DNA of 43,154 nucleotides from Flavobacteriales bacterium (GTDB taxonomy: Bacteria; Bacteroidota; Bacteroidia; Flavobacteriales; Flavobacteriaceae): contig JALWLE010000087.1 in NCBI GenBank assembly GCA_026996605.1, forward strand, positions 1 to 43,154. The letters are read 5' to 3'. The notes beneath the pieces are model-generated. The model made no database searches and was not told where the DNA came from. It worked only from the letters and a program-made list of their open reading frames with translations. A program made the position numbers and the translations under genes. Positions 3,555-42,770 of the stretch are shown here, piece by piece (the first letter of the stretch is position 1; the number at the start of each line of letters is the position of its first letter).

Positions 3555-4268
3555 TCATTCAATCTTTTGAAAATGCTCAATTGTATTATTAATTCCTATT
3601 TTTTTATCTTCGGCAAAACCTTCATAAATCAAATAAATACCGGCAATCAATAAAACTAACCCTATAAATTTTCTGATTTTGACCACACGTTTAGGAGTCA
3701 TTTTAGATTTAAACTGCTTGGCTAATAAAATTTTAACTATGTCCATTAATAAATATCCTAACAAAATACCTCCGAAAAAAATAAAAATACGATATGGGTT
3801 CAATTCCAGTTTAGGTGAAAAAATTACAATCATAGCCAACCAAAATGCCAATACGCCGATATTGATAAAGTTTAACAAAAAACCTTTGACAAATAAACCT
3901 AAGTAATTATTTTTGGGAATCTCTATCTCTGTCTGATTTTCCAAAGTTTCAACTTTAGGCTTGCGTATAATCGTAATTAAACCATATACCATCATAATCA
4001 TACCACCTAAACCGTAAAGTGCCGGATGATGTGTCAATTGTTCTAAGAGCTTATAACTACCCAAAAAAGCTATAAGTATAAAAACAAGATCGGCAAAAAG
4101 AACGCCTAAATCTAAAACAATAGCTGCTCTAAATCCTTTAGTTGCTCCGGTTTCCAACAATACAAAAAACACCGGTCCAATAATAAAACTTAATGAAATA
4201 CCCAGTGGGATGGCTTTTAATAAATCTTGAATATAAACATTCATAATGTCCGATAAAATAGACAACAA
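3555..4268 (-). CDS. LysE-family amino-acid exporter-like permease
   Basis: The 237-residue hydrophobic protein has about six membrane segments. The N-terminal half holds the LysE-family signature GISLSFIIGPVFFVLLETG with a following GFRAAIVLDLG-FADL block. LysE/RhtB proteins export amino acids or related metabolites across the inner membrane; the substrate cannot be read here. The long start gives MLSILSDIMNVY. The internal ATG eight codons later (4244) would start at MNVYIQDLL and is equally plausible. The gene lies between two tRNA-Leu genes on the same strand. There is a terminator between the upstream tRNA and this gene, so it is probably transcribed separately. Confidence 0.85.
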   Translation of the reverse strand: MLSILSDIMNVYIQDLLKAIPLGISLSFIIGPVFFVLLETGATKGFRAAIVLDLGVLFADLVFILIAFLGSYKLLEQLTHHPALYGLGGMIMMVYGLITIIRKPKVETLENQTEIEIPKNNYLGLFVKGFLLNFINIGVLAFWLAMIVIFSPKLELNPYRIFIFFGGILLGYLLMDIVKILLAKQFKSKMTPKRVVKIRKFIGLVLLIAGIYLIYEGFAEDKKIGINNTIEHFQKIE

Positions 4269-4308
4269 ATATAATAAAAAGAGAGTAATCCGTATTCAAT
4301 AAATAAAA

Positions 4309-4334
4309 ATGTCGGCAGTTATGAACGCCGACAT
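4309..4334 (-). terminator. Terminator of tRNA-Leu(UAG)
   Basis: On the minus strand ATGTCGGC (4334-4327) pairs perfectly with GCCGACAT (4316-4309), with a 10-base loop, followed by TTTTATTT. It lies ten bases past the tRNA 3' end. Confidence 0.88.
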
Positions 4335-4344
4335 CCTTTTATTG

Positions 4345-4426
4345 TGCGGGTGAAGGGACTCGAACCCCCACGCCTTGCGGCACCAGATCCTAAGTCTGGC
4401 GTGTCTACCAATTTCACCACACCCGC
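4345..4426 (-). tRNA. tRNA-Leu (anticodon UAG)
   Basis: The 82-nt class II tRNA is on the minus strand. It has acceptor stem GCGGGTG with CACCCGC, discriminator A73, D-arm GGTGAAATTGGTAGACACG and anticodon stem-loop CCAGA-CTTAGGA-TCTGG. A long variable arm and T-arm GGGTTCGAGTCCC complete it. Anticodon TAG reads CTA and other CTN leucine codons. CCA is not encoded. It is preceded by TATATTTG and followed by a strong hairpin terminator. Confidence 0.97.
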
Positions 4427-4439
4427 AAAATTGTGAGCG

Positions 4440-4447
4440 CAAATATA
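4440..4447 (-). promoter_or_regulatory. Bacteroidota -7 box for tRNA-Leu(UAG)
   Basis: TATATTTG on the minus strand matches TAnnTTTG and ends 13 bases before the tRNA 5' end. The downstream bases (GCGCTCACAATTTT) are nearly the same as at the other tRNA-Leu promoter. This supports a shared promoter and start-site design. Confidence 0.7.
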
Positions 4448-4621
4448 TTAAGTTTTTTGATTTATCTAAAATTTTTTTAGATAAAAATTTAATCACTGAT
4501 TCAACTAACTAATATTTAATTTTTTAAATTTATTTTAATTAATCACAAACAAATTGTTGAGTCAGAGTCAGAATAACATCATTTTTATTATTTACTTTAA
4601 ACTTTACAGTTTTAACTTCAA

Positions 4622-5740
4622 CTAAATATTCTTTATCCAAGTACGACGGCGTTTATGTTGTCGGTGTTCATAATTTTTCCAATTAGCTATCACGTTGTGA
4701 TTATCTTCAAAAACACCCGTTGTTTCAATATCTTCAATACCATTGGCTATCATAGCTTGGTGAAGCGCATCAAATAGCATAACAGCTACACCTTTTGAAT
4801 CATATTCCGGAATGACACCTGTCAACAAAGTATCTATTACTTTGGGATGTTTCATGGCTTGCATAATATGGTACCACCCAAAAGGAAAAAGTTTACCATT
4901 GGCTTTTTTAATACCTTCGGAGAGTGATGGCATCGCGATTAAAAAACCGACAATTTGTTCTTGATCCTTGACAAAAAACGTAAATTTAGGATCTAAAACA
5001 CTAAAATATTTGTTTTTGTAATAATTTTTTAAATTTTCATCCAATTCAATAACATAAGGTAAATGTGCAAATGCTTTATTTAAGATTTGAAAAGCTACAT
5101 CTGCATATGACTTAAGCTCTTTTTTATTTTTTGGTGAAAAAACTTCATAACCGAAACGCCGTTTGAGCAGTTTGGCACCACGCTCCCCTTTCTTAACCGG
5201 CTCATCGGTCAATTTTAACCGAAATTCTACCCAATCATTTTCTTTTTCAAATCCATATTTTTTCATCAAAGTTTTATAGTACGGCAGGTGATATACTGAC
5301 GCAATAGAAGGAATTTCCTCAAAACCTTCTACCAACATACCTTGCGTATCTAGATTGGTAAAACCTAAGGGACCGTGTACTTTTTTCATACCTTGCTCTT
5401 TAAGCCAAGCAATCGCCGTATCCATTAACAATCGAAAACCTTTCTCATCATTGTAAGTTTCCAAACCGACTAATCGTCCATAAGCTTTTCCGGATTTTTC
5501 ATTGTATTTATGATTTACGGCTGCAGCTATACGCCCTATAGGACGCCCTTTCCAATAGACCACCCATTTTTGCAAATCGACAAATTTTAATGCAGGATGT
5601 TGTGTCCATATTTTTTTTTCGTCCGACTTGATAGGAGGTATCCAATACGGATTGTCTTTATATAAGAGATAAGGATAATTGATAAAATCTTTAAAAACTT
5701 TGGAATTGTCAACAGTCTTAATCTCATATTTTGATATCAT
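4622..5740 (-). CDS. GNAT-like acyltransferase family protein
   Basis: The frame is open to 5824, but the extra 28 residues are poorly ordered and the ATG at 5740 gives the natural start MISKYEIKTVD. The protein is then 372 residues. It has a GNAT-type fold pattern. There is an N-terminal half with PIGRIAAAVNHKYNE and GPLGFTNLDTQGMLVEGF, and a second half with VIGFLIAMPSLSEGI-like and GVAVMLFDALHQAMIANGIEDIETTGVFEDN blocks. The latter resembles the acetyl-CoA binding and final strands of N-acetyltransferases. Proteins of this length and pattern are common in Bacteroidota and are usually annotated only as GNAT-like. The substrate is unknown. It is divergent from the M1 peptidase gene. Confidence 0.72.
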   Translation of the reverse strand: MISKYEIKTVDNSKVFKDFINYPYLLYKDNPYWIPPIKSDEKKIWTQHPALKFVDLQKWVVYWKGRPIGRIAAAVNHKYNEKSGKAYGRLVGLETYNDEKGFRLLMDTAIAWLKEQGMKKVHGPLGFTNLDTQGMLVEGFEEIPSIASVYHLPYYKTLMKKYGFEKENDWVEFRLKLTDEPVKKGERGAKLLKRRFGYEVFSPKNKKELKSYADVAFQILNKAFAHLPYVIELDENLKNYYKNKYFSVLDPKFTFFVKDQEQIVGFLIAMPSLSEGIKKANGKLFPFGWYHIMQAMKHPKVIDTLLTGVIPEYDSKGVAVMLFDALHQAMIANGIEDIETTGVFEDNHNVIANWKNYEHRQHKRRRTWIKNI

Positions 5741-25093: not shown

Positions 25094-26130
25094 AGTTAAT
25101 GATATTTCGTTTTTCGGCTATGGGCGACGTGGCTATGACCATGCCGGTACTACAAGCACTGCTCAATACCTATGAAGATGTGGAAATTATAGTGGTGTCT
25201 CGTCCGTTTTTCAAACCCTTTTTTAAAAATTTACCTCGAACCGAATTTATAGGTGTTGATTTAAAGCAAAAATATAAAGGTTTATCAGGTTTGTTTCGTT
25301 TATATCGTTTGTTGAAAACCAAACAACCCGATGCCATTGCCGACCTGCACGATGTGTTACGTACCAAAATTTTAAGAACTTTTTTTAGTTTAGGCGGTTT
25401 TCGCAAAATAGCAGTCATAGACAAGGGCAGAGTTGAAAAAAAAGCCTTAACCCGCTCACAAAACAAAATGTTTAAACCCCTTAAAACAACGCATCAACGC
25501 TATGCCGAAGTTTTTGAAAAATTAGGATTTCCTGTTGATTTAAAACGATTTGAACCGGATTTTCATGATTTTTCCAAACATGTTAGTCTGTTTTTTGCTT
25601 TTTTATCAGACTATAAGATCATAGGCATTGCCCCTTTTGCCGCTCATAAAGGCAAACAATATCCGTTAGAAAAGATAAAAGAAATCATACGATTATTACT
25701 TGAAAAAAACGAAAACATAAGCATTTTATTATTTGGTGGAGGGAAGTATGAGGAACAAATATTAGATGAATTAGAGGAAATGTATCTTGATCGCGTTTAC
25801 AATACCGTTGGTAATTATTCATTTGAAGAACAATTACAGTTAATCAGCGGCTTGGATGTTATGTTGAGCATGGACTCGGGCAATGGGCATTTAGCTGCAT
25901 TGTTTGGGGTTCCGGTGATAACTATTTGGGGAGCAACACACCCCTATGCCGGTTTTGCACCGTTTAATCAACCTTCTGAAAATCAAATTTTACCCGATTT
26001 AAAACAATTTCCGCAATTACCGACTTCCGTTTACGGTAACAAAACATTTGAGGGTTTTGAAAAAGTATGGGAAACAATTAAGCCGGAAGATGTGGTTGAT
26101 AAAATTTTAAGACTGATTCATGAGTTCTAA
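25090..26130 (+). CDS. Glycosyltransferase family 9 (heptosyltransferase-like)
   Basis: The 346-residue product begins [24 protein letters not shown], the GT9 N-terminus with a GD glycine loop. In the C-terminal half are IIGIAPFAAHKGKQYPLEKI, ILLFGGGKYEEQIL and the donor-site block DVMLSMDSGNGHLAALFGVPVITIWGATHP, which match ADP-heptose:LPS heptosyltransferases. The acceptor and donor sugars are not certain. It probably adds sugars to a lipid or polysaccharide core on the inner-membrane face. Its ATG overlaps the murF stop by four bases. The last 24 bases overlap the end of the LytTR regulator gene on the opposite strand. Confidence 0.9.
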   Translation: MKLMIFRFSAMGDVAMTMPVLQALLNTYEDVEIIVVSRPFFKPFFKNLPRTEFIGVDLKQKYKGLSGLFRLYRLLKTKQPDAIADLHDVLRTKILRTFFSLGGFRKIAVIDKGRVEKKALTRSQNKMFKPLKTTHQRYAEVFEKLGFPVDLKRFEPDFHDFSKHVSLFFAFLSDYKIIGIAPFAAHKGKQYPLEKIKEIIRLLLEKNENISILLFGGGKYEEQILDELEEMYLDRVYNTVGNYSFEEQLQLISGLDVMLSMDSGNGHLAALFGVPVITIWGATHPYAGFAPFNQPSENQILPDLKQFPQLPTSVYGNKTFEGFEKVWETIKPEDVVDKILRLIHEF

Positions 26131-26841
26131 AAATGACTTTCGTTTGGTTTTAACAAGTGGAACCCTAGTTTTATCTGTCAATTCCAAATATCCTTCATTT
26201 AAATACCGAGTAACGTATTTTAAGTTGATAATATGTGAACGATGCGGTTGAAAAAAATCCTTTGTATCAAGGAGTTCTAAAAATTTTCCCAAATTATACG
26301 AACTTAAATATTCTTGATTATCATTACAAATAATTTTGGTATATCCATCTGCCCCTTCTAACCTGACAACATGCTCTTTTTTAATAAAAGTATAGCCTTC
26401 TTGTGTCGGTATAGAAATGGTATTGCTTTTTTCGGTTAGTAAATCCAGAAGCACTTTATTGTTTTCTTTAGCTGCTTTAAGTTGAATATTTTGTTCTGCT
26501 TTTTTAATAGCTTGCGCAAGTGCTTCATCATCAATCGGTTTGACAATATAACCGATAGCGGCATGCCGTATAGCTTGAATGGCATAATTATCGTAAGCCG
26601 TTACAAAGATTACCTCAAATACCGGCTCTTCAAATTGTGATAACACATCAAAACCACTCATGTTAGGCATGGCAATATCTAAAAAAACCAAGTCCGGCTT
26701 TAATTCTTTAATGGCTGTAACTGCTCGTTCCGGTTCTTGAAAACTACCAAGTATTTCCAATTGTGAAAAGTTTTTTTTTATTTTCTTTTGAAGCATTTTA
26801 AGCGCTTTTGCTTCATCATCTATTAATATACAACGTATCAT
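26107..26841 (-). CDS. LytTR-family response regulator
   Basis: The 244-residue product has a receiver domain (1-120) with acidic pocket Asp8-Asp9, phosphoacceptor Asp55 in LVFLDIAMPNMSG, Thr81 and Lys101 (GYIVKPID). It is followed by a LytTR DNA-binding domain (about 143-240) with FFQPHRSHIINLKYVTRYL and a final RTRK-like basic stretch. It should bind direct-repeat sites after phosphorylation by the histidine kinase immediately upstream. The two genes overlap by four bases. Its stop lies inside the end of the convergent GT9 gene, with no terminator between. Confidence 0.95.
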   Translation of the reverse strand: MIRCILIDDEAKALKMLQKKIKKNFSQLEILGSFQEPERAVTAIKELKPDLVFLDIAMPNMSGFDVLSQFEEPVFEVIFVTAYDNYAIQAIRHAAIGYIVKPIDDEALAQAIKKAEQNIQLKAAKENNKVLLDLLTEKSNTISIPTQEGYTFIKKEHVVRLEGADGYTKIICNDNQEYLSSYNLGKFLELLDTKDFFQPHRSHIINLKYVTRYLNEGYLELTDKTRVPLVKTKRKSFLELMNQS

Positions 26842-29675
26842 AATTTCGTTATTTTAAGTTTAACAATGGTATTGTAAATTGTATGTTGGTCACTAATTTT
26901 ATCCATTATTTCGTAGGTAATTTGCCACTTTCCTGATAAGTTAAGTAATTTGATACGATCTTTGAGTATTTGAGTAGAGCGTGACTGGTGTTTTTTGAGT
27001 GAACGTTTATTAATCTCGGCAGATTTTTTTAGTCCGACTCCGTCATCTTTGATTTGTATCTCATAACTGTTTTCATCAACATATTGAAAATCTAAACAAA
27101 TAATCCCCTTGCCTTTTTTGTGAAAAACACCGTGATTTACAGCATTTTCAACAATAGGTTGTAATAAAAGTGTCGGGATTTCTGTTTGTTCGATATTTAG
27201 CCTTTCATCGATATTAATACAATAGTTAAACTGGTCACCAAAACGCATTTTTTCCAGATTGAGATAAGATTTTAACAAATCAATTTCTTGCTTGAGTTTG
27301 ATAGATTTTTTACGTGAAAACTCAAATATCATCCTAATTAAGCGTGCAAATTTGACTAAATAAGATTCTGATTTATTATAATTTTCATCATTGATATAAT
27401 ATTGAATAGCATTTAACGAGTTAAAAACAAAATGTGGATTCATTTGACTGCGCAAAGCATGCAACTCAAATTCTGCCATTTGTTTTTGTGCCATCAATTT
27501 AGCTCTTTGTTTACGAAGTTCTTTACGACGCATCCAGTAAGCTAAACTAAAAAACACAAATAAAACCGAGATAACCATAAGTATACGCGCCCAGCCCGTC
27601 TGCCACCATAAAGGCTTGATCGTAAAACCAAATGACTTTGAAAAAGCCTGTCTGTACGGATTGACCACCTTAACTTTAAAGGTGTATTTATTAGGCTTTA
27701 AATTATTAAAATTAATATTTTTTGAATTTATTTCCAACCAATTATTTTGCTCCGGAAGTAATTGATAAAAATAACGATTATGTTCCTGACCGTAATAATC
27801 TATTAAACCGAAATTAAACAGTAAATTATTATTCTTTGTATAAGGTTTGCGATCATTTTGAAAAATATTTTGTCCGTTATAATTAACGGATTTAAAATAG
27901 ATTTTTTGTACCGATATATTTCGAATGTCATTTTGATTAACACAAGTAACACCACTATAATTGGATGTATAAAGTTTGTTATTGAATAAAACAACATGAT
28001 TTACATGATCTGATATTAACCCGTCAGTTTTACGCATAATTTTATTCAAGTATAATTGTCCGTTTCTCAAATTATAATTAAATACACCCTTTTGAGTAGC
28101 CAGCCAAACCATAGTATCTTGAACAAAAATATGATTGACTATAAGTCCTTTTGTTTCTTCGAGAAATTGAGTATTTTGAAACTCATTCCATACATAAACA
28201 CCAAGACCATCTGTGCCTATTATTAAATTTTCACCTATTTTGTTAAGTGATAAAACCGGTATGGATGTGTTATTTGGTTCAAAATTAATATGTTTTATAC
28301 TATCATTATCAACCTTAAAAAGTCCGACCGGCGTACCACAAATCAGCTGATTATGATAAGTAATAAAATCATTACTTCCCTCAATGGGATATGTTTTAAT
28401 AAGTTTTAAATTACGATTAAACAAAGTTATCTGAGCCCGTTCTCTAATGGCAAATATGCTTTTGTTTAGACGTAATAAGCCTTTTCCAACCCTTTTATAC
28501 TCAATAATTTTACCATCTTTCTTTATAAAAGTTGATGTATTTGCCATAATACCGAAATTTTGCTCATCTTCATAAAGAAAATCAAAAAGATAATCATTGA
28601 TTTTAAAATAGAGTTCAAATTTAGAAGTCTTATTATTAAACTTATATATACCTTTGTTTAATATTCCGGCAAACAATTGATTATTATAAGTTTTTAAAAA
28701 TTGAACCGGTTCATTTAGAAGTAAATCTCGACTACTTAAAGCATTTTTAGGAAAAAAATAGACCCCCTTGGCATAAGTAGTTCCCCAAAAATTACCTTGG
28801 CGGTCCTTAAAAACTGTAGATAAATGAAACTTTTCAGGAAAAAACATTTTATTTTTTAAATGATAGTCCGGTCCCAGACTTGCCCAAAAATTCTCAGTTG
28901 ATATTTGAACATCTCGGTCTGTCGCCTGTACTCTGATATAGACATTTTTTTTAAAAATTTCGGGTTCAATAATATGATAAGCATTTAAATGTTTTAAATT
29001 TATAAAATGAATACCCGTTTCAGAAGAAACCGCAACCAGACTATCATTAATTTGTCCTTTGACATATAAATCGTTATATGGAAAACTAATTTTTTTTAAA
29101 TCATATAACATACTATCCATAAGAACAATTTGTCGGTTTGATTTTTTGTTTTGAAAAAACCGAAAATATAAATACGAGACTTTTTTCTCCAACAATTTTA
29201 AAGGCTGATACTCAAACTTTCCTACTTTTAAGAACGGGATAACCTGCCATTTTTGATGTTGTAATCTATAATTCTGATTATAACTTTTAAAATAGATTTC
29301 ATTTAAATTAGTATTTATTTGAGTTGGATAAAGAAATTCCGACTTTTGAGCCGGAAACGCATAAACCGTGTCATTTTGAATATATCCTATTTTATCAGAA
29401 CGTGTAAAAAACCAAATTTTATTATCTCCGGTAATCAGTATTTCCCAAATATCATTACTTGGTAAACCGTTGGCAATCGTGAAATTTTTGAACGAATCAC
29501 CATCAAATTTAGCCAATCCTTTATCGGTGGCTATCCAAATAAAGCCATCATAATCTTGTAAAATTTTATAAATCCGGTTAGACGGTAAACCTTGTTCAAT
29601 AGTAAAATGCTTATAGCCCTGAGCAATTAAGTTCAGAGCTATAAGACATATAAAAACAACAAGGTATTTTTTCAT
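26838..29675 (-). CDS. LytS-type sensor histidine kinase with periplasmic beta-propeller
   Basis: The 945-residue product has a signal-like N-terminus, then a periplasmic two-component-regulator propeller region. Its repeats include YKHFTIEQGLPSNRIYKILQ, GFIWIATDKGLAKFDG and TKGLIVNHIFVQDTMVWLAT. A Y_Y_Y-like beta domain (about 610-685, with NKYTFKVKVVNPY) is followed by one membrane segment (about 695-714). The cytoplasmic kinase is of the His_kinase/LytS type: LRSQMNPHFVFNSLNAIQYY with phospho-acceptor His748, N-box IVENAVNHG (841-849) and DDGVGL (877-882). It senses an extracellular or periplasmic cue and phosphorylates the overlapping LytTR regulator. It differs from hybrid systems in having a separate regulator. 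Confidence 0.95.
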   Translation of the reverse strand: MKKYLVVFICLIALNLIAQGYKHFTIEQGLPSNRIYKILQDYDGFIWIATDKGLAKFDGDSFKNFTIANGLPSNDIWEILITGDNKIWFFTRSDKIGYIQNDTVYAFPAQKSEFLYPTQINTNLNEIYFKSYNQNYRLQHQKWQVIPFLKVGKFEYQPLKLLEKKVSYLYFRFFQNKKSNRQIVLMDSMLYDLKKISFPYNDLYVKGQINDSLVAVSSETGIHFINLKHLNAYHIIEPEIFKKNVYIRVQATDRDVQISTENFWASLGPDYHLKNKMFFPEKFHLSTVFKDRQGNFWGTTYAKGVYFFPKNALSSRDLLLNEPVQFLKTYNNQLFAGILNKGIYKFNNKTSKFELYFKINDYLFDFLYEDEQNFGIMANTSTFIKKDGKIIEYKRVGKGLLRLNKSIFAIRERAQITLFNRNLKLIKTYPIEGSNDFITYHNQLICGTPVGLFKVDNDSIKHINFEPNNTSIPVLSLNKIGENLIIGTDGLGVYVWNEFQNTQFLEETKGLIVNHIFVQDTMVWLATQKGVFNYNLRNGQLYLNKIMRKTDGLISDHVNHVVLFNNKLYTSNYSGVTCVNQNDIRNISVQKIYFKSVNYNGQNIFQNDRKPYTKNNNLLFNFGLIDYYGQEHNRYFYQLLPEQNNWLEINSKNINFNNLKPNKYTFKVKVVNPYRQAFSKSFGFTIKPLWWQTGWARILMVISVLFVFFSLAYWMRRKELRKQRAKLMAQKQMAEFELHALRSQMNPHFVFNSLNAIQYYINDENYNKSESYLVKFARLIRMIFEFSRKKSIKLKQEIDLLKSYLNLEKMRFGDQFNYCINIDERLNIEQTEIPTLLLQPIVENAVNHGVFHKKGKGIICLDFQYVDENSYEIQIKDDGVGLKKSAEINKRSLKKHQSRSTQILKDRIKLLNLSGKWQITYEIMDKISDQHTIYNTIVKLKITKL

Positions 29676-31439: not shown

Positions 31440-31447
31440 TATCTTTG
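31440..31447 (+). promoter_or_regulatory. Candidate -7 box of the CsgG-like operon
   Basis: TATCTTTG matches TAnnTTTG. There is no clear -33 TTG at the usual distance. A weaker match (TATTTTTA) lies nearer to the gene, around 31553-31560. Confidence 0.4.
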
Positions 31448-31619: not shown

Positions 31620-32489
31620 ATGAAAAAAACATTACTATTCGTTTTATTATTTGTTACAACATTTGTTAATGCACAAAGAAAAACTATAGCCATAACCAAG
31701 TTTGAAACTATATCTAACATACCTGACAAATATGTTAAGGCTATTCAAACAAAAGTTGTTGAAACATTTCAACACACTAACCGTTTCAATATAGTTGACA
31801 GAACTAGTTTTGATAAAATAAAACAAGAAAAAGAACTACAAAAATCAGAAGAATTTATGGATGGTAAGGTTGTTGCGCAAACAACCATGGCAGGTGCCGA
31901 TGCCATAGTTGCAGGTGTTGTCAACGGTGTAAATTTTAGCATCAAACGGATTCAACTTCAAGATGGCAGCTATAATGAATATTATGTTTGCAATATGAGC
32001 ATATCTTTAAAAGTAATAGATGTCGCTACCGGTCAAGTTTTGGGTAGCAAAGTTTTAACACCAAAAAGAAGTTTTATGGGCTCTGTTTTAAGTCAATCAA
32101 CCGGTTACGGTCCTAAGACTAAAGATAGAGCATTTAGTATCACTTTAGCCAAAATGCAGAAACCTATTGATAAATTTGTTTCTGAATATTTTCCAATAGT
32201 TACATCAATTTTGGAAATAACAGAAGCTAAAAAAAACAATGCCAAAAAAGTTTTACTTAATACCGGTGAAACAAACGGTACTAAAAAGAACCAGATATTT
32301 TATGTTTACGAATTAAAAGAGCTAAAAGTAAACGGCAAAAAAATAATCAGAAAACTGGAAATAGGTAAATTAAAAATAGCTAAAGTAGAAGGCGATGAAG
32401 TCTCAGAAGCCAGAGTTTTAAAAGGCGGTAAAGCAATTTTTGAAAAATTTAATGCCGGTGCCAAAATAGAATGTTATTCTAAAAAATAA
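31620..32489 (+). CDS. CsgG-family exported protein with FlgT-C-like tail
   Basis: The 289-residue product has a type I signal peptide (to residue 18, FVNAQ) and no lipobox, unlike E. coli CsgG. Residues about 20-195 follow the CsgG/TolB-N pattern: KTIAITKFETISN, VETFQHTNRFNIVDRTSFDKI, MAGADAIVAGVVNGV and MSISLKVIDVATGQVLGSKV. The final part (about 205-289) has the small beta-barrel pattern known from FlgT C-terminal domains: AKKVLLNTGETNGTKKNQIF, then EIGKLKIAKVEGDEVSEARV and FNAGAKIECY. Both assignments are from sequence pattern. CsgG-like proteins form outer-membrane pores or activate envelope enzymes; which, if either, applies is unknown. It is the first gene of a four-gene operon, five bases before the next. 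Confidence 0.78.
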   Translation: MKKTLLFVLLFVTTFVNAQRKTIAITKFETISNIPDKYVKAIQTKVVETFQHTNRFNIVDRTSFDKIKQEKELQKSEEFMDGKVVAQTTMAGADAIVAGVVNGVNFSIKRIQLQDGSYNEYYVCNMSISLKVIDVATGQVLGSKVLTPKRSFMGSVLSQSTGYGPKTKDRAFSITLAKMQKPIDKFVSEYFPIVTSILEITEAKKNNAKKVLLNTGETNGTKKNQIFYVYELKELKVNGKKIIRKLEIGKLKIAKVEGDEVSEARVLKGGKAIFEKFNAGAKIECYSKK

Positions 32490-32494
32490 ATATT

Positions 32495-32962
32495 ATGAAG
32501 AAATTATTCCTACTATTGACAATTGCAAGCTTGTTTTTTATATCATGTGGTTCAAAAAAACAAGTAAACACTCCTTTGACAGCACAAGTAAATGTTGTTA
32601 GTGAAGACCCCTATAAAACAATTACGCTCAGAAGTATTGGTTTTGGAAAAAACAAAGATGCGGCACAATATGATTCAGAACGTAAGGCTTTTGAAATTCT
32701 ATTCTTTAGAGGCATACCTAATACCTCTGTTGAACAACCCTTAGTTGGACCAAACGAAAATGAAATCATGTCTAAACACGCTGCTTATTTTAATGATTTC
32801 TTTAAAGACAGATACAAATCATTCATTATGAGTATCTATAATGCCTCACCACCGCAAAAAAACAAAGGACAGGTTTCGGTCGTCAATGATATTAAAATTA
32901 ATCTGATAGCTTTAAAAAAAGAACTTGAAAATAGAGGCGTAAAACGAAGATTCGGTTTTTAA
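32495..32962 (+). CDS. Lipoprotein of the CsgG-like operon, LPP20/FlgT-N-like
   Basis: The 155-residue product has a lipoprotein signal peptide (FFISCG, Cys18). The mature part starts with a disordered stretch and then reads LRSIGFGKNKDAAQYDSERKAFEILFFRG. That layout, with a glycine pair followed by an alanine-rich helix, resembles LPP20 or FlgT N-terminal modules. It closes with VSVVNDIKINLIALKKELENRG. The family link is weak and the function is unknown. It is the only lipid-anchored product of the four and could tether the complex to the outer membrane. Confidence 0.7.
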   Translation: MKKLFLLLTIASLFFISCGSKKQVNTPLTAQVNVVSEDPYKTITLRSIGFGKNKDAAQYDSERKAFEILFFRGIPNTSVEQPLVGPNENEIMSKHAAYFNDFFKDRYKSFIMSIYNASPPQKNKGQVSVVNDIKINLIALKKELENRGVKRRFGF

Positions 32963-32981
32963 CATAAAAAAAATATTGAAA

Positions 32982-33869
32982 ATGAAAAAAAAGAACATAA
33001 TTTTATTATTAATATCACTTACTTTAATAAGTAAGGGATTTACACAAGAAAAAAAGGTACAACAAGTACAACCTTCTATCATGGTAATGCCTTGGACCAA
33101 AGAAGGACAAGACATTCGTACAGTTTATGAAAATGATTTTAATGTAAGAATTGCAATAACTAAAGTAAAAGAAGCTTTTGATAAAAGGGGATTTACTACT
33201 AAAGATTTTGTTACTAAACTTAAGCAAGCTCTTAAAGAAATAAGCTTGCAAAAGGATGATAAAACCGATTTAGCTAAGATGGTCGGACAAATGTCAGGAG
33301 CTGATATTATCGTTTTAGTTGATATGAAATATAACAAAACATCAAGTGGAAGTTACGTAAAATTGTCTTTACTGGCAAATGACAGGGTAACCGGTGAGGC
33401 ATTGGCAAATACAACCGGTGATTCAGGAAAATTTTACACAGACGATGTAGATCGCTTGGCAGAAAAAGCCATAGAAAGTTGTGTAGAAGGTTTCTTAGAT
33501 ACTTTGAATGCCAAATTTTCAGACATAGTAGAAAATGGTCGTACCATAAGAATTACTATTACATTTGATAATAACTCTGATTATGATATGTACTCGGAAA
33601 TAGGTAATGACGGTGATGTTTTGTCTGATATTATCGATGATTGGTTAAGTGATAATGCTTACAAAAACAACTATCACGTTGAGAATATAACCGAAACAGC
33701 AATGTTTGTTGATGTCTTTAAAATCCCTTTAAGAGATGAAAGAGGTAGGAATTATAAGGCAAGGAAAGTAGCAAGAGATTTGAGAAAATTTTTGAAAAAA
33801 AATTATGGTCTAAATGTTCAGTATGGTAAAGAAAATAATGAAACAGGTGTTTCATTAAGAATTTTATAA
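32982..33869 (+). CDS. DUF6175-like exported protein
   Basis: The ATG at 32982 is preferred; a TTG two codons earlier (32976) also opens the frame. The 295-residue product has a signal peptide (KKKNIILLLISLTLISKGFTQ). The first domain (about 30-180), from PSIMVMPWTKEGQDI to MSGADIIVLVDMKYNK and VKLSLLANDRVTGEALANTTGDSG, has the strand-helix layout of TolB-N/LpoB-like folds. A second domain (about 185-295) starts RTIRITITFDNNSDYDMYSEIG. The pattern matches my memory of DUF6175, found near CsgG genes in Bacteroidota, but this is unconfirmed. It sits third in the operon, 19 bases after the lipoprotein gene. Confidence 0.68.
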   Translation: MKKKNIILLLISLTLISKGFTQEKKVQQVQPSIMVMPWTKEGQDIRTVYENDFNVRIAITKVKEAFDKRGFTTKDFVTKLKQALKEISLQKDDKTDLAKMVGQMSGADIIVLVDMKYNKTSSGSYVKLSLLANDRVTGEALANTTGDSGKFYTDDVDRLAEKAIESCVEGFLDTLNAKFSDIVENGRTIRITITFDNNSDYDMYSEIGNDGDVLSDIIDDWLSDNAYKNNYHVENITETAMFVDVFKIPLRDERGRNYKARKVARDLRKFLKKNYGLNVQYGKENNETGVSLRIL

Positions 33870-33879
33870 AATCAAACTT

Positions 33880-34827
33880 ATGAAAAATTATTTTATTCTT
33901 ATTTTAATGCTGATTGTTTTTGGGCAGACAAAAGCTCAAAAAAATCATAGCGAAGACGAAGCAAATCAAATTAGTTTATCGGTTATTTTACCGGACAATT
34001 CTGATTATTTATCCCGTCGGGCATTATCAAAAATTGAATCAAAAATTCAACATATTGTCAGTAAATACGGAATCTCAGGTCAAGGATATACTAACGACTT
34101 TTTAATATATCCAAAGTTTGAGATCTATGACGAATCCATAGTTGAAGGCATGCGTAATATCCACACGGTAGAAGCAGAATTCAATTTATTCATTAAACAA
34201 TATCGTAATAATAAGGTCTTTGCTTCGTATTCCAGAACAGTTACAGGAAGTGGTTTTACAAAAGAAAAAGCGATTATCAACGCCATTCAAAAAATTCCGG
34301 TTAACGACCCTAAATTGAAAAAATTTATTGAAGAAGGTAAGCAAAAAATCTTGGCTTATTATAACAATAATTGTAGTCAATTTGAAGCGGATGCTAAAAC
34401 GGCAATTAAAATGAAACGTTTTAATAAAGCTATTGCCATCCTTTCAACTATACCTAAAGAAGCTAAACAATGTTATGCCAGAATTCAAAATCTTTCTGTT
34501 GTAGCATATAATGCTTATCAAAAACAACATTGTAAAGAGCAGATTATGGCTGCCAAAGCCGATTTAGCCAATAATAATTATTCTGCCGCTTTATATGATT
34601 TAAAATTTGTTGACCCGCTTTCTCCTTGTGCTTCAGAAGCCAAAATGCTCATCAACAGAACTGCAGCAAAAGTAGATGCCAAAGAACGTAAAGAGTGGAA
34701 TTTTATGCTCAAAAGATACAATGACCGATTAAATATGGAAAAATATCGGCTAAATATCGTTAAAGAAATTGCCAAAGCATATTATAAATCAAAACCTCAA
34801 ACCGTAATTTATAAAAGTTTGTTTTAA
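33880..34827 (+). CDS. Exported protein closing the CsgG-like operon
   Basis: The 315-residue product has a signal peptide (to about residue 19, QTKAQ). Residues 30-165 run from ISLSVILPDNSDYLSRRALSKI, through GYTNDFLIYPKFEIYDES, to FASYSRTVTGSGFTKEKAIINAIQKI. This looks like another TolB-N-like alpha/beta domain. Residues 170-260 are helical, with two repeats of a pattern like FNKAIAILSTIPKEAKQCYARI and YSAALYDLKFVDPLSPCASEA, suggesting TPR-like units. I recognise the type as recurrent in Bacteroidota but no function is known. It starts 10 bases after the preceding gene and is followed at once by a strong terminator. Confidence 0.68.
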   Translation: MKNYFILILMLIVFGQTKAQKNHSEDEANQISLSVILPDNSDYLSRRALSKIESKIQHIVSKYGISGQGYTNDFLIYPKFEIYDESIVEGMRNIHTVEAEFNLFIKQYRNNKVFASYSRTVTGSGFTKEKAIINAIQKIPVNDPKLKKFIEEGKQKILAYYNNNCSQFEADAKTAIKMKRFNKAIAILSTIPKEAKQCYARIQNLSVVAYNAYQKQHCKEQIMAAKADLANNNYSAALYDLKFVDPLSPCASEAKMLINRTAAKVDAKERKEWNFMLKRYNDRLNMEKYRLNIVKEIAKAYYKSKPQTVIYKSLF

Positions 34828-34843
34828 TTATTACTTATATTTT

Positions 34844-34883
34844 AAACTGCCCTTAACTATTGTTATGGGCAGTTTGTTTTTTT
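34844..34883 (+). terminator. Strong terminator of the CsgG-like operon
   Basis: AAACTGCCC (34844-34852) pairs perfectly with GGGCAGTTT (34867-34875) and is followed by GTTTTTTTA. It includes the last bases of the convergent MATE gene and could work weakly in both directions. Confidence 0.9.
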
Positions 34884-36199
34884 ATGATGAAGTAACGATT
34901 AAACCGCCACCACAAACTCCCGGCTCTGACCGCCATCCAAAGCAAGAAAGCCATCCAAACACCGTAAAGCTGTAAGCCGTAACTATCCAAAAGCAACAAA
35001 ACCGGTACAAAGACAACAAATGTGGCAATCAGTTGCATATTGCGCAGAAATTTGACCCAGCCCAATCCTTTAAAAATACCATCAAAAATAAAGGCAACAG
35101 CCCCTACGGGTTGCATCAAAATGACCAACCAAAAGACTTGTTCGTATAAAGCAATAACTTCTGGCTCATTGGTAAACAACAATCCGATAGGTTTGTATAA
35201 GATGATAAAAACTAAAGCCAATACAAGGGCTACAAATTCGCTATACTTAATCAACTTACCGGCTAGTTTTTTTAAATTCAAAAAATCTTTTTCGCCATAA
35301 AGTTTACCGGCTAGCGAATTGCCGGCATCGGCGTAACCGTCGAGAAAGAAAGTGGTAAAGAGCCAAATATTAGTCAAAATAACATGAACGGCTATGGCGT
35401 TTTTGCTGTAAGAAGTGGCATAGCGGTTTGATAGAAATATCGCTGTATTCAAAGCAATAGTGCGAATAATCAAATTGCCGGTCATACTTAAAAAGCGTTT
35501 AATCGCCGAGTGAAGTCGTAGGCTTAATTGCAAATCAAATGGTGTTTTACGCAAGAATATTCCGATTGCCAACAGCATCATCACAAATTGCGCTATCAAG
35601 CTTGCCCAAGCAGCGCCTTTTATATGCATTGGGGTTATATAACCGGAAACACCATATACTAACAAATAATCTAAAACAATATTGATGATACCACCGATTA
35701 CACTGATAAACATCGCCCAATACGTATTTTGTAAACCCCGAAAAATACCGAACAATGTAAAAGTAATCAAGGTGAAAATCAATCCGAAAACTCTGATTTT
35801 GTAGTAGGATACCGAAAAATCTAAAATGCGGTCCTTGGCGGCATATATTTCAAAAATATCTTTGGCTAAATACCGGGTCAATAATACCAAAACAATGCCT
35901 AAAAGCACATTCATTATCAAAACTTGTGGTATCAAAGTTTTGATTTGATGCAATTTTTTAGCACCCAAATGCTGACTGACAATGCTCGAAATAGCATTTT
36001 TAGTCTGCGCCAATATCCAAAACAAAGCCGACATAAACGACCCCACTAATCCCACGGCCGCCAAACTCTCGGTCGGAAAATCTTTAACATGCCCGATAAT
36101 TGCCGTATCTGTAATGGAAATCACCGGTTCGATAATTCCGGCAAGTATGGACGGAATGGCGAGTTTGTTGATGGTTTTGAAAGATATTTTTTGGTTCAT
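34853..36199 (-). CDS. MATE-family multidrug/metabolite exporter
   Basis: The 448-residue protein has about 12 membrane segments. It begins MNQKISFKTINKLAIPSILAGIIEPVISITDTAIIGHV, the standard MATE N-terminus, and has SSIVSQHLGAKKLHQ after the second segment. In the second half NTAIFLSNRYATSYSKNAIAVHVIL and YADAGNSLAGKLYGEKD are the mirrored repeat. The layout is nearest to the DinF-like branch. MATE proteins export cationic or other small compounds by Na+ or H+ antiport. The substrate is unknown. It is downstream of ppk1 on the same strand, separated by 105 bases with a large inverted repeat. Confidence 0.94.
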   Translation of the reverse strand: MNQKISFKTINKLAIPSILAGIIEPVISITDTAIIGHVKDFPTESLAAVGLVGSFMSALFWILAQTKNAISSIVSQHLGAKKLHQIKTLIPQVLIMNVLLGIVLVLLTRYLAKDIFEIYAAKDRILDFSVSYYKIRVFGLIFTLITFTLFGIFRGLQNTYWAMFISVIGGIINIVLDYLLVYGVSGYITPMHIKGAAWASLIAQFVMMLLAIGIFLRKTPFDLQLSLRLHSAIKRFLSMTGNLIIRTIALNTAIFLSNRYATSYSKNAIAVHVILTNIWLFTTFFLDGYADAGNSLAGKLYGEKDFLNLKKLAGKLIKYSEFVALVLALVFIILYKPIGLLFTNEPEVIALYEQVFWLVILMQPVGAVAFIFDGIFKGLGWVKFLRNMQLIATFVVFVPVLLLLDSYGLQLYGVWMAFLLWMAVRAGSLWWRFNRYFIIKKQTAHNNS

Positions 36200-38595: not shown

Positions 38596-40791
38596 TTATT
38601 TTCTCAATAAAAGTTTTTCTTGTGTAAACTGATGTGAGGCTTTTAAGACATCTACCATTTTAGACCAATTAGCATTAGGTTCATAATTGTGGAAATAAGA
38701 TTCTTCAACATTGATAATTATTTTATCTCCTTCTTGTTTAGCAGAACTTATAAAGCTTCCAACATCGTTTTTGACTGACTTGTTCAATTTATCCAAACCT
38801 TTAACCTTATATCCGGCAGGTAATTTTATACTGATATGATATTTGGCGATATACGGATAATATCTGTATATATTTTCGGTGCGTTTCATTTCTTTTTCAT
38901 CGACATCATCTTGACGTCCTATTAATTTACCGGCTAAAAGTATGGTATTTTTACCGGCTTTTTTGGTTAAACCTTCTTTGATATTGTATGATTCATGATA
39001 TTGAAAATCTTTTTGGTCGGCATATCTACCTAATTTGTCAATACCAAAATCATAATTATCAATCTTGACCTCATAGTATTTTTCAGTATCTTTTTTAAAA
39101 GCTTCTTTTCTTTTGTCTTTGTTCTTTTTTATAGCAGCATTAAGTTTGTTAATAGTACTGCGTCCTCTTTTACGTTTAGCCTTATTGTGAAGAATTGATT
39201 TACCGTCATTAAATCTTTTATAGTCATCATCATAAAAATCGTAAATACTCACAATATTAGATCTTACAACTCTTTTTTTATGTCCTTTGGCGTTTACAGT
39301 CTGTTTGACGGCTATATCTTTAAATTGGTCATCGAGATTAACTTCCATGTTTTTTTCGATGACATTATCTTCGATGGCAGATTCCGGCATGGTAAAATCA
39401 TTGATACTTTCCGGTTTACCCAGTTTACTCAATCCTAATACATAAGCCGAATTACTTTCGTATAACGGATGAATTTCACCGGCTATGCCGAACAAAGGGT
39501 TTTCAACCAGTGATTGTAAAAACATGGTTTCGCCACCGGGTAAATACACTTTGGTAACATAATCTAGATAATAATTGGTAAGAAGATCTTTCATGCCACC
39601 CAATTTTCTGTATTTCACTAAAATTAACTCGTGTTTGAGTTTTTCATGTTCCAAAAAACTGTGTAAAACAGAATGAAATGTGTATTCGTTTAACAAATTA
39701 ACATCGTTCATCCAAACATTGGCAAGAACCGGATCAATATCTTCAAAAACCGAAGCTTGTAATACAGGTTGAATGGCATAATAACGCAAATTGTTATAAA
39801 ATCTTTCAATGCGTTTTCTAGGCGATTTGATATTTTTTAGGTTTTTGTATAATTTGACTAAGGATTTGTTGTTAAATTTATAAGTTTTATAAGTTTCCAA
39901 AACTTCGTCTTTGGTAACGTGTCTCTTGATTTTACCTCTTTCTTTGGCTAAAAAGGCACCCATTTTTTTTCTAACGCTATTGCTTGGTGCAAAGCCTACT
40001 TGAAACTTGATTGAAGGATATTCTACCAACGGGAATACCCAGGATTTGGCATCACGTGATTTAACATTGTCCATAATGATTTTGTAGGCAATACGTTTAG
40101 GATCGGAAGTTCTGATTTTTTTGATGTCCGGTGCGCCATTAAGATTTTGGAAGTTTAAATAAAACTTTTTGCCCATATTCAAATCGACTTCTTCTCTGAT
40201 AATAGGGTAATCGGAATTTAGAGTTGTATAAACCGGTGGAAAAGTCGCCCCGTTTCTAATATATAAATAGTCGCTGTCAAAGTAGTAGTAATCGATAATA
40301 TCGCCAATTTCAAGATTAGGAATGGCTATTTTATTAACATCATCTTCTTTGACCGTGTTTTTTTTAATATCTATTTTGATTTCTTTTTTATTGGGTTTAA
40401 TGATTTTGACATTAAAGTTGGTTATTTCTTTGTCTTTTTTCTTAAAACCTAAGATTCCAATACTACCGGTATTCTCTTGTTCATATTTAAATTTAGAATA
40501 TTCATCGAGAGCGGCTTGGTCGAGAATCTTAATCCGTCTTCTAAAGTAAGACTCTACAAAAACAATTCTGTTTCGTCTTTTATAGTTATAATAATGCTTT
40601 TGATAGAGGATAACAGCAGATTGGTCTTTGTATTTATCAGCGTCAAATTTAATTTTTTTGGCAGGGTCATTATGCGGCCAAACCAATCGTTTAATTTCAG
40701 CTGCTTTCTTTTTTCTAAACTGTGCTTGTGCCGTAAAATTCAAACCGAATATAAAGGCCAAACTAATTAAGAGTATTTTTTTTAAAGTCAT
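38596..40791 (-). CDS. DUF3857-type exported protein, cysteine-free transglutaminase homologue
   Basis: The 731-residue product has a signal peptide (to about residue 23, FTAQAQ). An N-terminal beta domain (about 50-290) with KEITNFNVKIIKPNKKEI and IPNLEIGDIIDYYYF has the DUF3857 pattern. The region about 310-440 (SPRKRIERFYNNLRYYAIQ, then NEYTFHSVLHSFLEHEKLKHELILVKYR) occupies the place of a transglutaminase domain. The whole protein has no cysteine, so a thiol catalytic triad is impossible. The C-terminal beta domain (about 590-731) matches the layout of its neighbour. It is probably periplasmic or surface-exposed, of unknown role. It follows the catalytic-looking paralogue by 38 bases, in one operon. 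Confidence 0.8.
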   Translation of the reverse strand: MTLKKILLISLAFIFGLNFTAQAQFRKKKAAEIKRLVWPHNDPAKKIKFDADKYKDQSAVILYQKHYYNYKRRNRIVFVESYFRRRIKILDQAALDEYSKFKYEQENTGSIGILGFKKKDKEITNFNVKIIKPNKKEIKIDIKKNTVKEDDVNKIAIPNLEIGDIIDYYYFDSDYLYIRNGATFPPVYTTLNSDYPIIREEVDLNMGKKFYLNFQNLNGAPDIKKIRTSDPKRIAYKIIMDNVKSRDAKSWVFPLVEYPSIKFQVGFAPSNSVRKKMGAFLAKERGKIKRHVTKDEVLETYKTYKFNNKSLVKLYKNLKNIKSPRKRIERFYNNLRYYAIQPVLQASVFEDIDPVLANVWMNDVNLLNEYTFHSVLHSFLEHEKLKHELILVKYRKLGGMKDLLTNYYLDYVTKVYLPGGETMFLQSLVENPLFGIAGEIHPLYESNSAYVLGLSKLGKPESINDFTMPESAIEDNVIEKNMEVNLDDQFKDIAVKQTVNAKGHKKRVVRSNIVSIYDFYDDDYKRFNDGKSILHNKAKRKRGRSTINKLNAAIKKNKDKRKEAFKKDTEKYYEVKIDNYDFGIDKLGRYADQKDFQYHESYNIKEGLTKKAGKNTILLAGKLIGRQDDVDEKEMKRTENIYRYYPYIAKYHISIKLPAGYKVKGLDKLNKSVKNDVGSFISSAKQEGDKIIINVEESYFHNYEPNANWSKMVDVLKASHQFTQEKLLLRK

Positions 40792-40829
40792 CTTTATTAT
40801 TTTTTAATAATTGATTTAGAAATGATAGA

Positions 40830-42770
40830 TTATTTTTTCACCAAAACTATTTGGGATTGATAAATGTCATTGAGTTTTTCATAAACTTTTTGCCAAGCTT
40901 CTAAGTTTTTTTTGTGGATAAGTGCATTAGGAAAAACAAATTTTTTAGTATATATCAATTTATTTCCTTCGGTTTTAAAGCTGATGTCAACCTGAAAATC
41001 TTCATTGACAGCATGCAAATCTTCTGGAACTTCGCTAAATTTATAATCTTGTGGTATTTCAAGAATGGTTTTAGTTTCCAGATGCGATTTTTTATAGAAT
41101 TGGTAAGGGGTTTTGCGTTTTTTGAAATCTAATCCGCCGTAATCTTTATCGTAGTCAAAATCGATATACATTTCATTATCAAAAGCAGAAACGGCATTTT
41201 TTAAGGTAAAATCATAATCCAGTTTTATATCAGCTTCACGATTTGATAAATCTGAGGTTTTAATGTTTTTTAACACGTAATTGGTATCATCACCTTTGAG
41301 AAAATATTGTAAAGCTTCTTTTTTCTTGTTGGTTTTTATCGTATTGTAGCCTTGCAAAAATGCTGTCCGGCTTTGCCCTTTATATACTTCTTTAACATGT
41401 CCGGTCAAATTTTCGCCTTCTACTTTCATGATTTTTTCATAAGTTTTCAAGTTATGTTTGGCATCGTGAACGGGCACTTTTTTTAGCATAAATTTGTTGC
41501 CGTCTTCAATCATTACCTCACGTCCTTGTATGCGTTCGGCATATTCTCCAAAAGGAACATATGATTCGGTCGCATCCAGATAATAAGGTTTCCCGTTTAT
41601 AAACAGGGTACATATCATATGGTTGTCAACCGCTAAACTCGGTGTGCTGTAATCGTAAGCAATACGTCTGGTGCCAATCCATGTGCGTCTGGCATCATAA
41701 CCGGCTTTTTGAAGCATGCCGGTTAGTAAGTTTGCCATACCTTTACAGTCACCGTAGCGTTTTTCATAGACATTTTGAGATTCGTCAGGTTTGTAACCGG
41801 CTAAACCGTCTTCAAAGGCAATATAGCGAATATTGTCTTGTACCCAATAGAATATGTTTTTAATTTTGTCGATATCGGTTTTGCCTTTCTTTTTAAGTTC
41901 GTTGACTTTGTTAGCATAAAGAGCCGGCTTTTCTTTTAAACGTTTAATTAAGGAATGATACCATTTGTAGAGATCGCCGGTTTGGTCAAAAACCTTTTGA
42001 GTTTGATTGGTTTTGTCAACATAAGATTTTGTCAAAACCAAAACATGAGGATACAAGTAGGTAGGTCCCTGCATGTGTGATTCGTTATACATAGCCGGAA
42101 TATTGTGTAAAATATATTCGGTTACGTTGGCTTTGTATTTGTCACTGTAATAAGATTTCTTTTTAATGTCATAACCGGTAAAATTCATTTCCTTGAGTTC
42201 TACATTAACTTTTTTAGGAATAATAAACCGGATTGTTTTTTTGATGATAGGCTGCTCTTTGGCAAAGTAAACCGAGGTAAAATATTTGGGGTCGTAGTAG
42301 GTTTTTCGGTATTCGTATTTATAAATATAACCGGTCATGGGAAATCGCAGGTTGGCAAATTTAACCCTGTTGTCGTGATAGAACAAGTCGTTGACTTTAA
42401 CGTATTGGTCATTAACTTTTAATTGTTGACGCCTGTTTAATTTATTTTTAAACCGCAAACTGACATCACCGGAATTGTCGTCATAAAACAAATATTCTTG
42501 AATGAAGGCATTGTCTTTGATACTCATTAAAGTTTCTTTGCCTTTCATTTTGATATGATAATTGTTAGATTTTCTGTCAAATTTATATTGGTAGTTTTCT
42601 TCCCCGTCTAAGATAACTACTTCTACGTCTTTCCGGTCTTTAAATTTTTTTGCAAGATTTTTGGCTTTTTGTATCTCTTCAGGGCTGGGGTCGGCACGTA
42701 ATTGCGCCATTAACTTTGTATTTTGCGATGAAAAAACCAATATCGCAATAAGTAATATGAAGTTTTTCAT
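40830..42770 (-). CDS. DUF3857 and transglutaminase-like domain protein
   Basis: The 646-residue product has a signal peptide (to about residue 22, TKLMAQ). The DUF3857 beta domain (about 60-250) is followed by a transglutaminase-like domain (about 295-410). That domain has KNIFYWVQDNIRYIAFEDGLAGYKP and the nucleophile in YGDCKGMANLL (Cys342). The histidine is in VDNHMICTLF (His384) and the acid in PYYLDAT (Asp399). A C-terminal beta domain ends it. Such domains cut or join peptide or isopeptide bonds; the natural substrate of the Bacteroidota family is unknown. It is the first gene of the two-gene minus-strand operon with the cysteine-free paralogue downstream. Confidence 0.9.
   Translation of the reverse strand: MKNFILLIAILVFSSQNTKLMAQLRADPSPEEIQKAKNLAKKFKDRKDVEVVILDGEENYQYKFDRKSNNYHIKMKGKETLMSIKDNAFIQEYLFYDDNSGDVSLRFKNKLNRRQQLKVNDQYVKVNDLFYHDNRVKFANLRFPMTGYIYKYEYRKTYYDPKYFTSVYFAKEQPIIKKTIRFIIPKKVNVELKEMNFTGYDIKKKSYYSDKYKANVTEYILHNIPAMYNESHMQGPTYLYPHVLVLTKSYVDKTNQTQKVFDQTGDLYKWYHSLIKRLKEKPALYANKVNELKKKGKTDIDKIKNIFYWVQDNIRYIAFEDGLAGYKPDESQNVYEKRYGDCKGMANLLTGMLQKAGYDARRTWIGTRRIAYDYSTPSLAVDNHMICTLFINGKPYYLDATESYVPFGEYAERIQGREVMIEDGNKFMLKKVPVHDAKHNLKTYEKIMKVEGENLTGHVKEVYKGQSRTAFLQGYNTIKTNKKKEALQYFLKGDDTNYVLKNIKTSDLSNREADIKLDYDFTLKNAVSAFDNEMYIDFDYDKDYGGLDFKKRKTPYQFYKKSHLETKTILEIPQDYKFSEVPEDLHAVNEDFQVDISFKTEGNKLIYTKKFVFPNALIHKKNLEAWQKVYEKLNDIYQSQIVLVKK

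Follow-up and report, generated by a model that had tools for sequence, protein, structure and literature searches.

A co-inherited accessory operon of Bacteroidota encodes DUF6175 and CsgG/LpoB-family proteins, candidates for a periplasmic scaffold complex

Introduction

FlgP forms the basal disk in Campylobacter and has the SHS2 fold in common with Lpp20 and FlgT (PMC12222027). LPP20 is the family of Lpp20, whose fold is also that of FlgP and FlgT (PMC12222027 and PMC11756786). In Helicobacter pylori, two-hybrid tests show FlgP to interact with both HP1454 and HP1456 (PMC11756786). In PelBC, a PelC ring is combined with TPR repeats (PMC12141448). Here we describe four genes at positions 31620-34827 of a 43,154-nucleotide stretch of DNA from a Flavobacteriales bacterium (JALWLE010000087.1, contig 87 of a 2.38-Mb draft genome that is 97% complete; the whole stretch is called the window). 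The third gene encodes a member of DUF6175 (PF19672), a Pfam family of unknown function. The four genes are inherited together as an accessory unit, and we see about an even chance that their products assemble beneath the outer membrane into one periplasmic scaffold.

Compared with the H-ring and basal disk of FlgT/FlgP systems (with Lpp20 and HP1454 of Helicobacter), the operon is similar in that its products are exported, the gene 1 family combines a TolB-N-type module with an FlgT_C-like tail, and some operon relatives have LPP20-domain partners; it is different in that FliF has no match in the draft genome (FliF was the flagellar gene searched) and gene 2 of the window matches neither LPP20 nor FlgT_N. 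To our knowledge, no counterpart of DUF6175 or gene 4 is present in FlgT/FlgP systems. With the CsgG channel the operon shares a gene 1 product that belongs to Pfam CsgG and predicted folds of genes 3 and 4 that are near the CsgG periplasmic domain, whereas gene 1 has no lipobox, the stretch that would hold a membrane hairpin is variable in length, and CsgF and curlin have 0 matches each in the draft genome (CsgE was not searched). The gene 3 model has its best fold match in PelC, which forms a dodecameric ring of lipoproteins in Pel export and likewise has TPR-type repeats in a partner; in contrast to PelC, the operon carries its lipid anchor on another protein (gene 2), the gene 3 product begins with a type I signal peptide, and no polysaccharide gene family was seen to recur at the operon loci. 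As for LpoB, the activator of PBP1b, gene 1 narrowly passes the Pfam LpoB cut-off, but it is far below the NCBI equivalog cut-off, does not look like a lipoprotein, and lies in a four-gene setting. A curli or a flagellar operon was ruled out as CsgF, curlin and FliF are all unmatched, and the preliminary description of this DNA, made from the sequence alone, was right to place the set in neither system. The module types are already known; their assembly in a DUF6175 operon appears to be undescribed in the open-access papers searched, where DUF6175 is not mentioned and no description of the operon was seen among the entries listed.

Results

The four genes

Genes 1-4 form one tight operon on the same strand.

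31620..32489, + strand: gene 1, exported CsgG/LpoB-family protein, 289 amino acids (aa) (Pfam match and family scan)
32495..32962, + strand: gene 2, lipoprotein, 155 aa (lipobox; fused to gene 3 in other lineages)
32982..33869, + strand: gene 3, DUF6175 protein, 295 aa from ATG (PF19672 match and model)
33880..34827, + strand: gene 4, exported protein, 315 aa (model; no family over cut-off)

The positions of the open reading frames (ORFs) confirm the four-gene, same-strand unit described earlier, with gaps of 5, 19 and 10 bases between genes 1-2, 2-3 and 3-4. Genes 1, 3 and 4 have type I signal peptides ending near AQ/TQ, and gene 2 has a lipobox-like motif (...FFISC). Signal peptides and the lipobox of gene 2 were assigned by eye throughout; this reading agrees with the claim that all four products are exported.

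Co-inheritance and locus architectures

Of 397 sampled genomes of the family, 32 have a DUF6175 match, which is over the cut-off in 31. Strong matches (E below 1e-30) of gene 4 are present in 30/31 DUF6175 genomes vs 0/366 others (Fisher 2.8e-44); the corresponding numbers are 29/31 vs 0/366 for gene 2 (Fisher 5e-42) and 13/31 vs 0/366 for gene 1 (Fisher 2.6e-16). The samples for genes 1, 2 and 4 have the same size and the genome handles listed for them agree. Their profiles were built from DUF6175 neighbours in partly the same genomes, which makes the positive counts partly circular, but not the zero counts. The first-look scan scored 5-9 candidates per genome, a depth at which weak relatives could escape. 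Weaker matches were left out, and every genome that gave one lacks DUF6175. They number 7 genomes (3e-4 to 9e-4) in one of the three scans, 3 (2e-4 to 7e-4) in the second and 11 in the third, where five range from 2e-10 to 2e-7 and are probably remoter members of the CsgG family. Genome G608 was excluded, its DUF6175 match (E 1.5e-4) being under the cut-off; its locus (L096) has none of the four genes. Mirror-tree Pearson correlations are 0.72-0.90, and we gave them no weight as evidence because shared ancestry alone yields high values.

We fetched 48 loci, 47 of which (all except L096) hold genes of the set. The set genes are on one strand in 47/47 loci (just one gene is shown at L094), and genes 3 and 4 lie next to each other in 44 of the 47, with a spacing of -41 to +61 bases in 42 of these 44 (L066 is counted as a neighbour case despite an antisense ORF called in the gap). 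The exceptions are L019 (gene 1 lies between them), L087 (without gene 4) and L094 (gene 3 is split). Gene 1 is found in 20 loci, another first protein in 17, a gene 2-gene 3 fusion in 8, and none of these in 2 (L064 and L094). The alternative first protein (391-858 aa; 16/17 in one BLAST cluster) weakly resembles the C-terminal part of gene 1 (profile probability 73.6), and L017 (Leadbetterella), L018 (Saprospiraceae) and L063 have additional gene 1-like proteins, 520-572 aa long. At the fused-type locus L065 and in Bacteroides finegoldii, LPP20-domain proteins occupy the gene 4 position or come after it. Within the fetched flanks, no gene family from outside the set is shared by a majority of the loci (the next largest is seen at 10/48), so we see no dedicated substrate or enzyme. 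The co-occurrence and the locus survey bear out the expectation that the four genes stay together in Bacteroidota: the set behaves as a unit that is co-inherited, accessory and patchy, and whose first gene is exchangeable.

The fused gene 2-gene 3 proteins at the 8 loci are 411-485 aa long. The gene 2 profile (cleaned of gene 3 relatives for this search) fits their N-terminal part with E 2.4e-15 to 1.5e-5, and the DUF6175 profile fits the rest. Gene fusion is a classical sign of two products working together. Bacteroides finegoldii has a gene 1 homologue (8.8e-47), then a gene 2-gene 3 fusion (1e-20 and 7.8e-58, respectively) and after it two proteins with an LPP20-family annotation, of which one passes the Pfam cut-off and the other falls just short of it.

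As side observations on these loci, the Bacteroides finegoldii record (L125, NZ_OY725910.1) is labelled 'plasmid 8', carries dprA and dusB and resembles a chromosomal piece; beyond the two LPP20-family proteins, its operon extends to a pair of uncharacterized proteins (335 and 506 aa). At L094 (4920-5932, genome G372), DUF6175 is split into ORFs of 118 and 168 aa, a decayed or misassembled copy.

Genes 3 and 4

Gene 3 is a clear member of DUF6175 (PF19672: 6.4e-76, 255.7 bits with a cut-off of 23, model positions 2-280 of 293). Neither its sequence alone nor its profile matched anything meaningful in the Protein Data Bank (PDB). We list its domains, and those of gene 4, from AlphaFold2 models (alignments of five sequences each; pLDDT 85.0 and pTM 0.74 for gene 3, 79.9 and 0.71 for gene 4).

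33063..33539, + strand: TolB-N-type domain of gene 3, residues 28-186 (PelC Z 11.4, CsgG 10.8, FlgT 9.2)
33540..33866, + strand: C-terminal alpha/beta domain of gene 3, residues 187-295 (model)
33955..34368, + strand: TolB-N-type domain of gene 4, residues 26-163 (HpaA Z 9.3, CsgG 8.5, FlgT 8.4, PelC 8.2)
34369..34788, + strand: helical repeat part of gene 4, residues 164-303 (conserved Cys 165, 198, 218, 250)

The best fold match of the gene 3 model is PelC (2.6 A over 117 residues, 11% identity), and the list includes CsgG (4.5 A over 131), LptE (Z 9.3, 3.2 A over 115), FlgT (3.1 A over 127) and TolB (Z 8.2, 3.8 A over 111). Foldseek ranked FlgT of the LPHT ring first (2.3e-5). The gene 4 model matches HpaA first (3.9 A over 133), and also CsgG (4.2 A over 125), FlgT (3.5 A over 123) and PelC (3.9 A over 115); its best Foldseek match is a minor lipoprotein of Acinetobacter (6e-4). 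Because exported envelope proteins of one fold top both lists, it is credible that genes 3 and 4 carry a predicted TolB-N-type domain, more securely so for gene 3. This is what had been proposed for the two genes.

No Pfam family is over the cut-off for gene 4 (a TPR model reaches 21.1 bits, cut-off 25), and its profile matched nothing meaningful among PDB sequences. By self-comparison, its C-terminal part contains two helical repeats about 53 residues apart. Cysteines 165/198 and 218/250 are kept in 36-37 of 37-38 aligned rows, a pattern that suggests disulfide-stapled repeats. We also note that gene 3 has weak matches to PADLOC models, namely the candidate defence model PDC-M64B (7.6e-4, 17.9 bits) and PDC-M64C (0.032).

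Genes 1 and 2

Gene 1 is the sole CsgG-family match in its draft genome, with the following domain.

31707..32057, + strand: CsgG-like domain of gene 1 (Pfam CsgG, residues 30-146)

It matches Pfam CsgG with 35.1 bits (cut-off 20.8, E 1.1e-8) and Pfam LpoB with 23.5 bits (cut-off 22.3, E 5.6e-5), and the NCBI equivalog LpoB model TIGR02722 gives 18.7 bits vs a cut-off of 110.55. Its signal peptide ends in NAQ and has no lipobox cysteine. Among 22 members of the gene 1 family, matches at E up to 1 were obtained for CsgG (16), LpoB (16; best 1.6e-9), FlgT_C (3; best 1e-5), TolB_N (1) and FlgT_M (1; 0.014); the window protein itself has neither an FlgT_C nor an FlgT_M match in the Pfam scan. The earlier description of gene 1 as CsgG plus FlgT-C-like parts thus holds for the CsgG part, and for the FlgT-C part it is supported by three of 22 relatives, the window protein not being among them. 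CsgG and FlgT chains make up the top seven of the 12 PDB matches of the family profile, all seven being weak (E 0.07-0.11), and the gene 1 sequence alone matched nothing meaningful in the PDB. The stretch corresponding to what we take to be the site of the first membrane hairpin in CsgG is 20-53 residues long in the 22 members (20 in three of them), vs 45 in CsgG and 40 in the window protein. A weak match of gene 1 to phrog_20175 (4.5e-5) is recorded in addition.

The gene 2 protein of the window has no Pfam match, and no LPP20 or FlgT_N is among the 25 families listed, out of 30, for the 42 members of its family. When compared with LPP20 domains, the gene 2 profile reached a probability of 0.9, with 1/20 shuffles equally good, and nothing meaningful was found among PDB sequences. 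The proposed resemblance of gene 2 to the FlgT N-module is therefore not supported by the Pfam scan and the profile comparison.

A candidate scaffold complex and its alternatives

From the operon, the co-inheritance and the fusion we infer that the four products probably form one physical complex. Our preferred reading, evenly balanced in our judgment, is a periplasmic scaffold under the outer membrane, with a ring or disk as the likeliest shape. Genes 1, 3 and 4 would contribute one TolB-N-type module each; since modules of this type pack side by side into rings in PelC, CsgG and FlgT, a ring- or disk-like hetero-oligomer would be the likeliest form. Gene 2 would supply the lipid anchor in the window architecture, and partner proteins may be held by gene 1, through its small C-terminal domain, and by gene 4, through its helical arms with their putative cysteine staples. 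The LPP20-family partners in relatives link the set to the FlgP/Lpp20 group and so favour a ring or disk scaffold; its likeliest job would be that of an envelope scaffold or outer-membrane reinforcement, as in FlgP/Lpp20-type disks, without a flagellum.

Several observations weigh against this reading. LptE, HpaA and TolB, which we take to be of TolB-N type and not ring-forming, score close to the ring formers in the fold searches with genes 3 and 4. The Z values of gene 4 (best 9.3) are near the tool's typical 7-8, and unrelated folds are among its matches (e.g. YcaO, Z 8.2 over 66 residues). Foldseek TM-scores by query length are low for gene 3 (0.20-0.33 in the rows compared), because mainly one domain fits. 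When signal peptides were removed, profile comparisons gave probabilities of 38.4 for genes 1 and 3, 58.0 for genes 1 and 4, and 0.2 for genes 3 and 4; the full-length values (96.2 for genes 1 and 3, 93.5 for genes 1 and 4) are partly due to the signal peptide. In a control with the N-terminal profiles of genes 1 and 3, 1/20 column shuffles beat the observed score (an outlier of 131.9). With profile likeness this weak, the claim of a shared fold rests on the models. The alternative first protein in 17/47 loci is another such point, as are the gene 2 relatives: 21/41 free-standing ones pass the lipobox pattern, and in 15/17 loci with the alternative first protein the first gene 2-like protein has no lipobox by pattern. 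Anchoring would thus differ between architectures.

If gene 1 were a CsgG-like outer-membrane pore, the operon could encode a secretion channel in which genes 2-4 act as gate, anchor and substrate delivery. The Pfam CsgG match of gene 1, the rank of CsgG and FlgT chains among the PDB matches of its family, and the high place of CsgG in the fold searches with genes 3 and 4 would all fit such a channel. We regard it as unlikely: the first-hairpin stretch shrinks to 20 residues in three of the 22 members, gene 1 has no lipobox, neither CsgF nor curlin is matched in the draft genome, another protein takes the gene 1 position in 17/47 loci, and the fetched flanks contain no recurrent substrate gene. 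The lack of conservation of the hairpin stretch, together with the replaceability of gene 1, makes a conserved CsgG-type pore in general unlikely. It is improbable as well that the operon encodes a regulator of cell-wall synthesis in which gene 1, like LpoB, would activate a peptidoglycan synthase and genes 2-4 would be its partners in the periplasm; the Pfam LpoB match just over the cut-off and the LpoB matches in 16/22 relatives are consistent with this role, but the TIGR02722 score is far too low, gene 1 does not read as a lipoprotein, no outside family recurs at most loci, and the patchy spread (13/296 genomes in the phylum) would be odd for a core regulator.

The other two alternatives concern genes 3 and 4 and the set as a whole. 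Genes 3 and 4 could form a PelC-like ring that guides a polymer to a barrel encoded elsewhere, as an accessory of polysaccharide export. The Z of 11.4 between gene 3 and PelC points that way; PelBC joins a PelC ring and TPR repeats (PMC12141448), and gene 4 has TPR-like repeats. Yet no outside family recurs at most loci and the signal peptide of gene 3 is of type I where PelC is a lipoprotein, and we consider this role very improbable. That the four proteins are merely co-transcribed and act separately on different envelope machines would agree with the dissimilar sequence profiles of genes 3 and 4, but the strict co-inheritance, the gene fusion and the same module type in three of the four proteins speak against it, and we hold it to be quite improbable.

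Returning to the scaffold reading, a bolder and doubtful form of it would make the complex a flagellum-free relative of FlgT/FlgP rings, i.e. an outer-membrane ring or disk machine built from a TolB-N and LPP20-type kit in non-flagellated Bacteroidota and spread as an exchangeable cassette. If the products do form a ring, ring modules of flagella and curli would be a general construction kit of the outer membrane, also used by bacteria without flagella or curli, including a gut Bacteroides. In any case, DUF6175 gains a strong guilt-by-association frame: its partners are fixed, it takes part in a fusion, its fold is predicted, and its candidate complex can be put to the test.

Distribution and mobility

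DUF6175 carriers are 3/13 genomes in the genus and 13/296 in the phylum; with the 32/397 in the family, this patchiness rules out a core housekeeping function. The carriers range from environmental Flavobacteriaceae to human gut Bacteroides, and the all-or-none accessory distribution makes the operon a clean deletion target. In two congeners (G008 and G003), the genes that flank the operon in the window, which we take to be MATE and rseP genes, adjoin (with an 8-base overlap and 125 bases apart, respectively), and the operon is missing there. Ten congeners were fetched in all; in the remaining eight, the MATE gene is at a contig end or lies beside different genes. G011 has the operon in another place, and two genomes of another genus (G015 and G702) have differing architectures, with gene 3 only 19% identical. 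The operon is an accessory unit and is probably exchanged horizontally; gain here and loss elsewhere are both compatible with these data. A viral origin was considered and rejected: a single-protein scan found no relative in viral_contigs, and there is one match in a fecal record labelled as phage.

Transcription signals

The following elements flank the operon.

31440..31447, + strand: TAnnTTTG box, possible promoter element (conserved upstream in G006)
34843..34883, + strand: intrinsic terminator, hairpin with T run (z -6.0)

The region 34828-34890 folds with -20 kcal/mol, and 0/200 shuffles equal it, confirming the strong terminator described after the set; the output of a simple hairpin scan does not contain it. 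The TAnnTTTG box is 172 bases 5' of the gene 1 ATG and is kept upstream of the operon in the closest relative, G006. The full TTTG-spacer-TAnnTTTG pattern is unmatched in the G006 upstream region and occurs 11 times in the window vs 6.4 expected (8/100 shuffles reach 11). The promoter-like box noted earlier is thus less secure than the terminator and amounts to the conserved TAnnTTTG part.

Neighbouring genes and other loci

Positions 26107-29675 of the window encode a response regulator of LytTR type and a large sensor kinase (named by eye; as with MATE and rseP, these names are our assumption from reading the proteins). A link of this two-component pair with the operon was ruled out for the window: the pair adjoins rseP in two congeners without the operon there, and thus belongs to the old neighbourhood. 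Across the fetched loci, sensor-kinase-like proteins of one BLAST cluster are found at 10/48 loci (including L010, L015, L017, L071, L072 and L081) and regulator-like proteins of another cluster at 5 loci, both being raw counts; at L015 the arrangement is directly divergent from the operon. A 339-344-aa protein occurs at four operon loci (L071, L073, L081 and L089) beside a second family seen at five; they could be surface proteins. In the fecal record labelled as phage (L126), a 192-aa protein at 4050-4628, by eye a small outer-membrane barrel, sits between two gene 2-like genes of an alternative-type operon. On the - strand of the window, 38596-42770 encodes two large exported proteins in tandem, of which the one at 40830-42770 is presumably transglutaminase-like.

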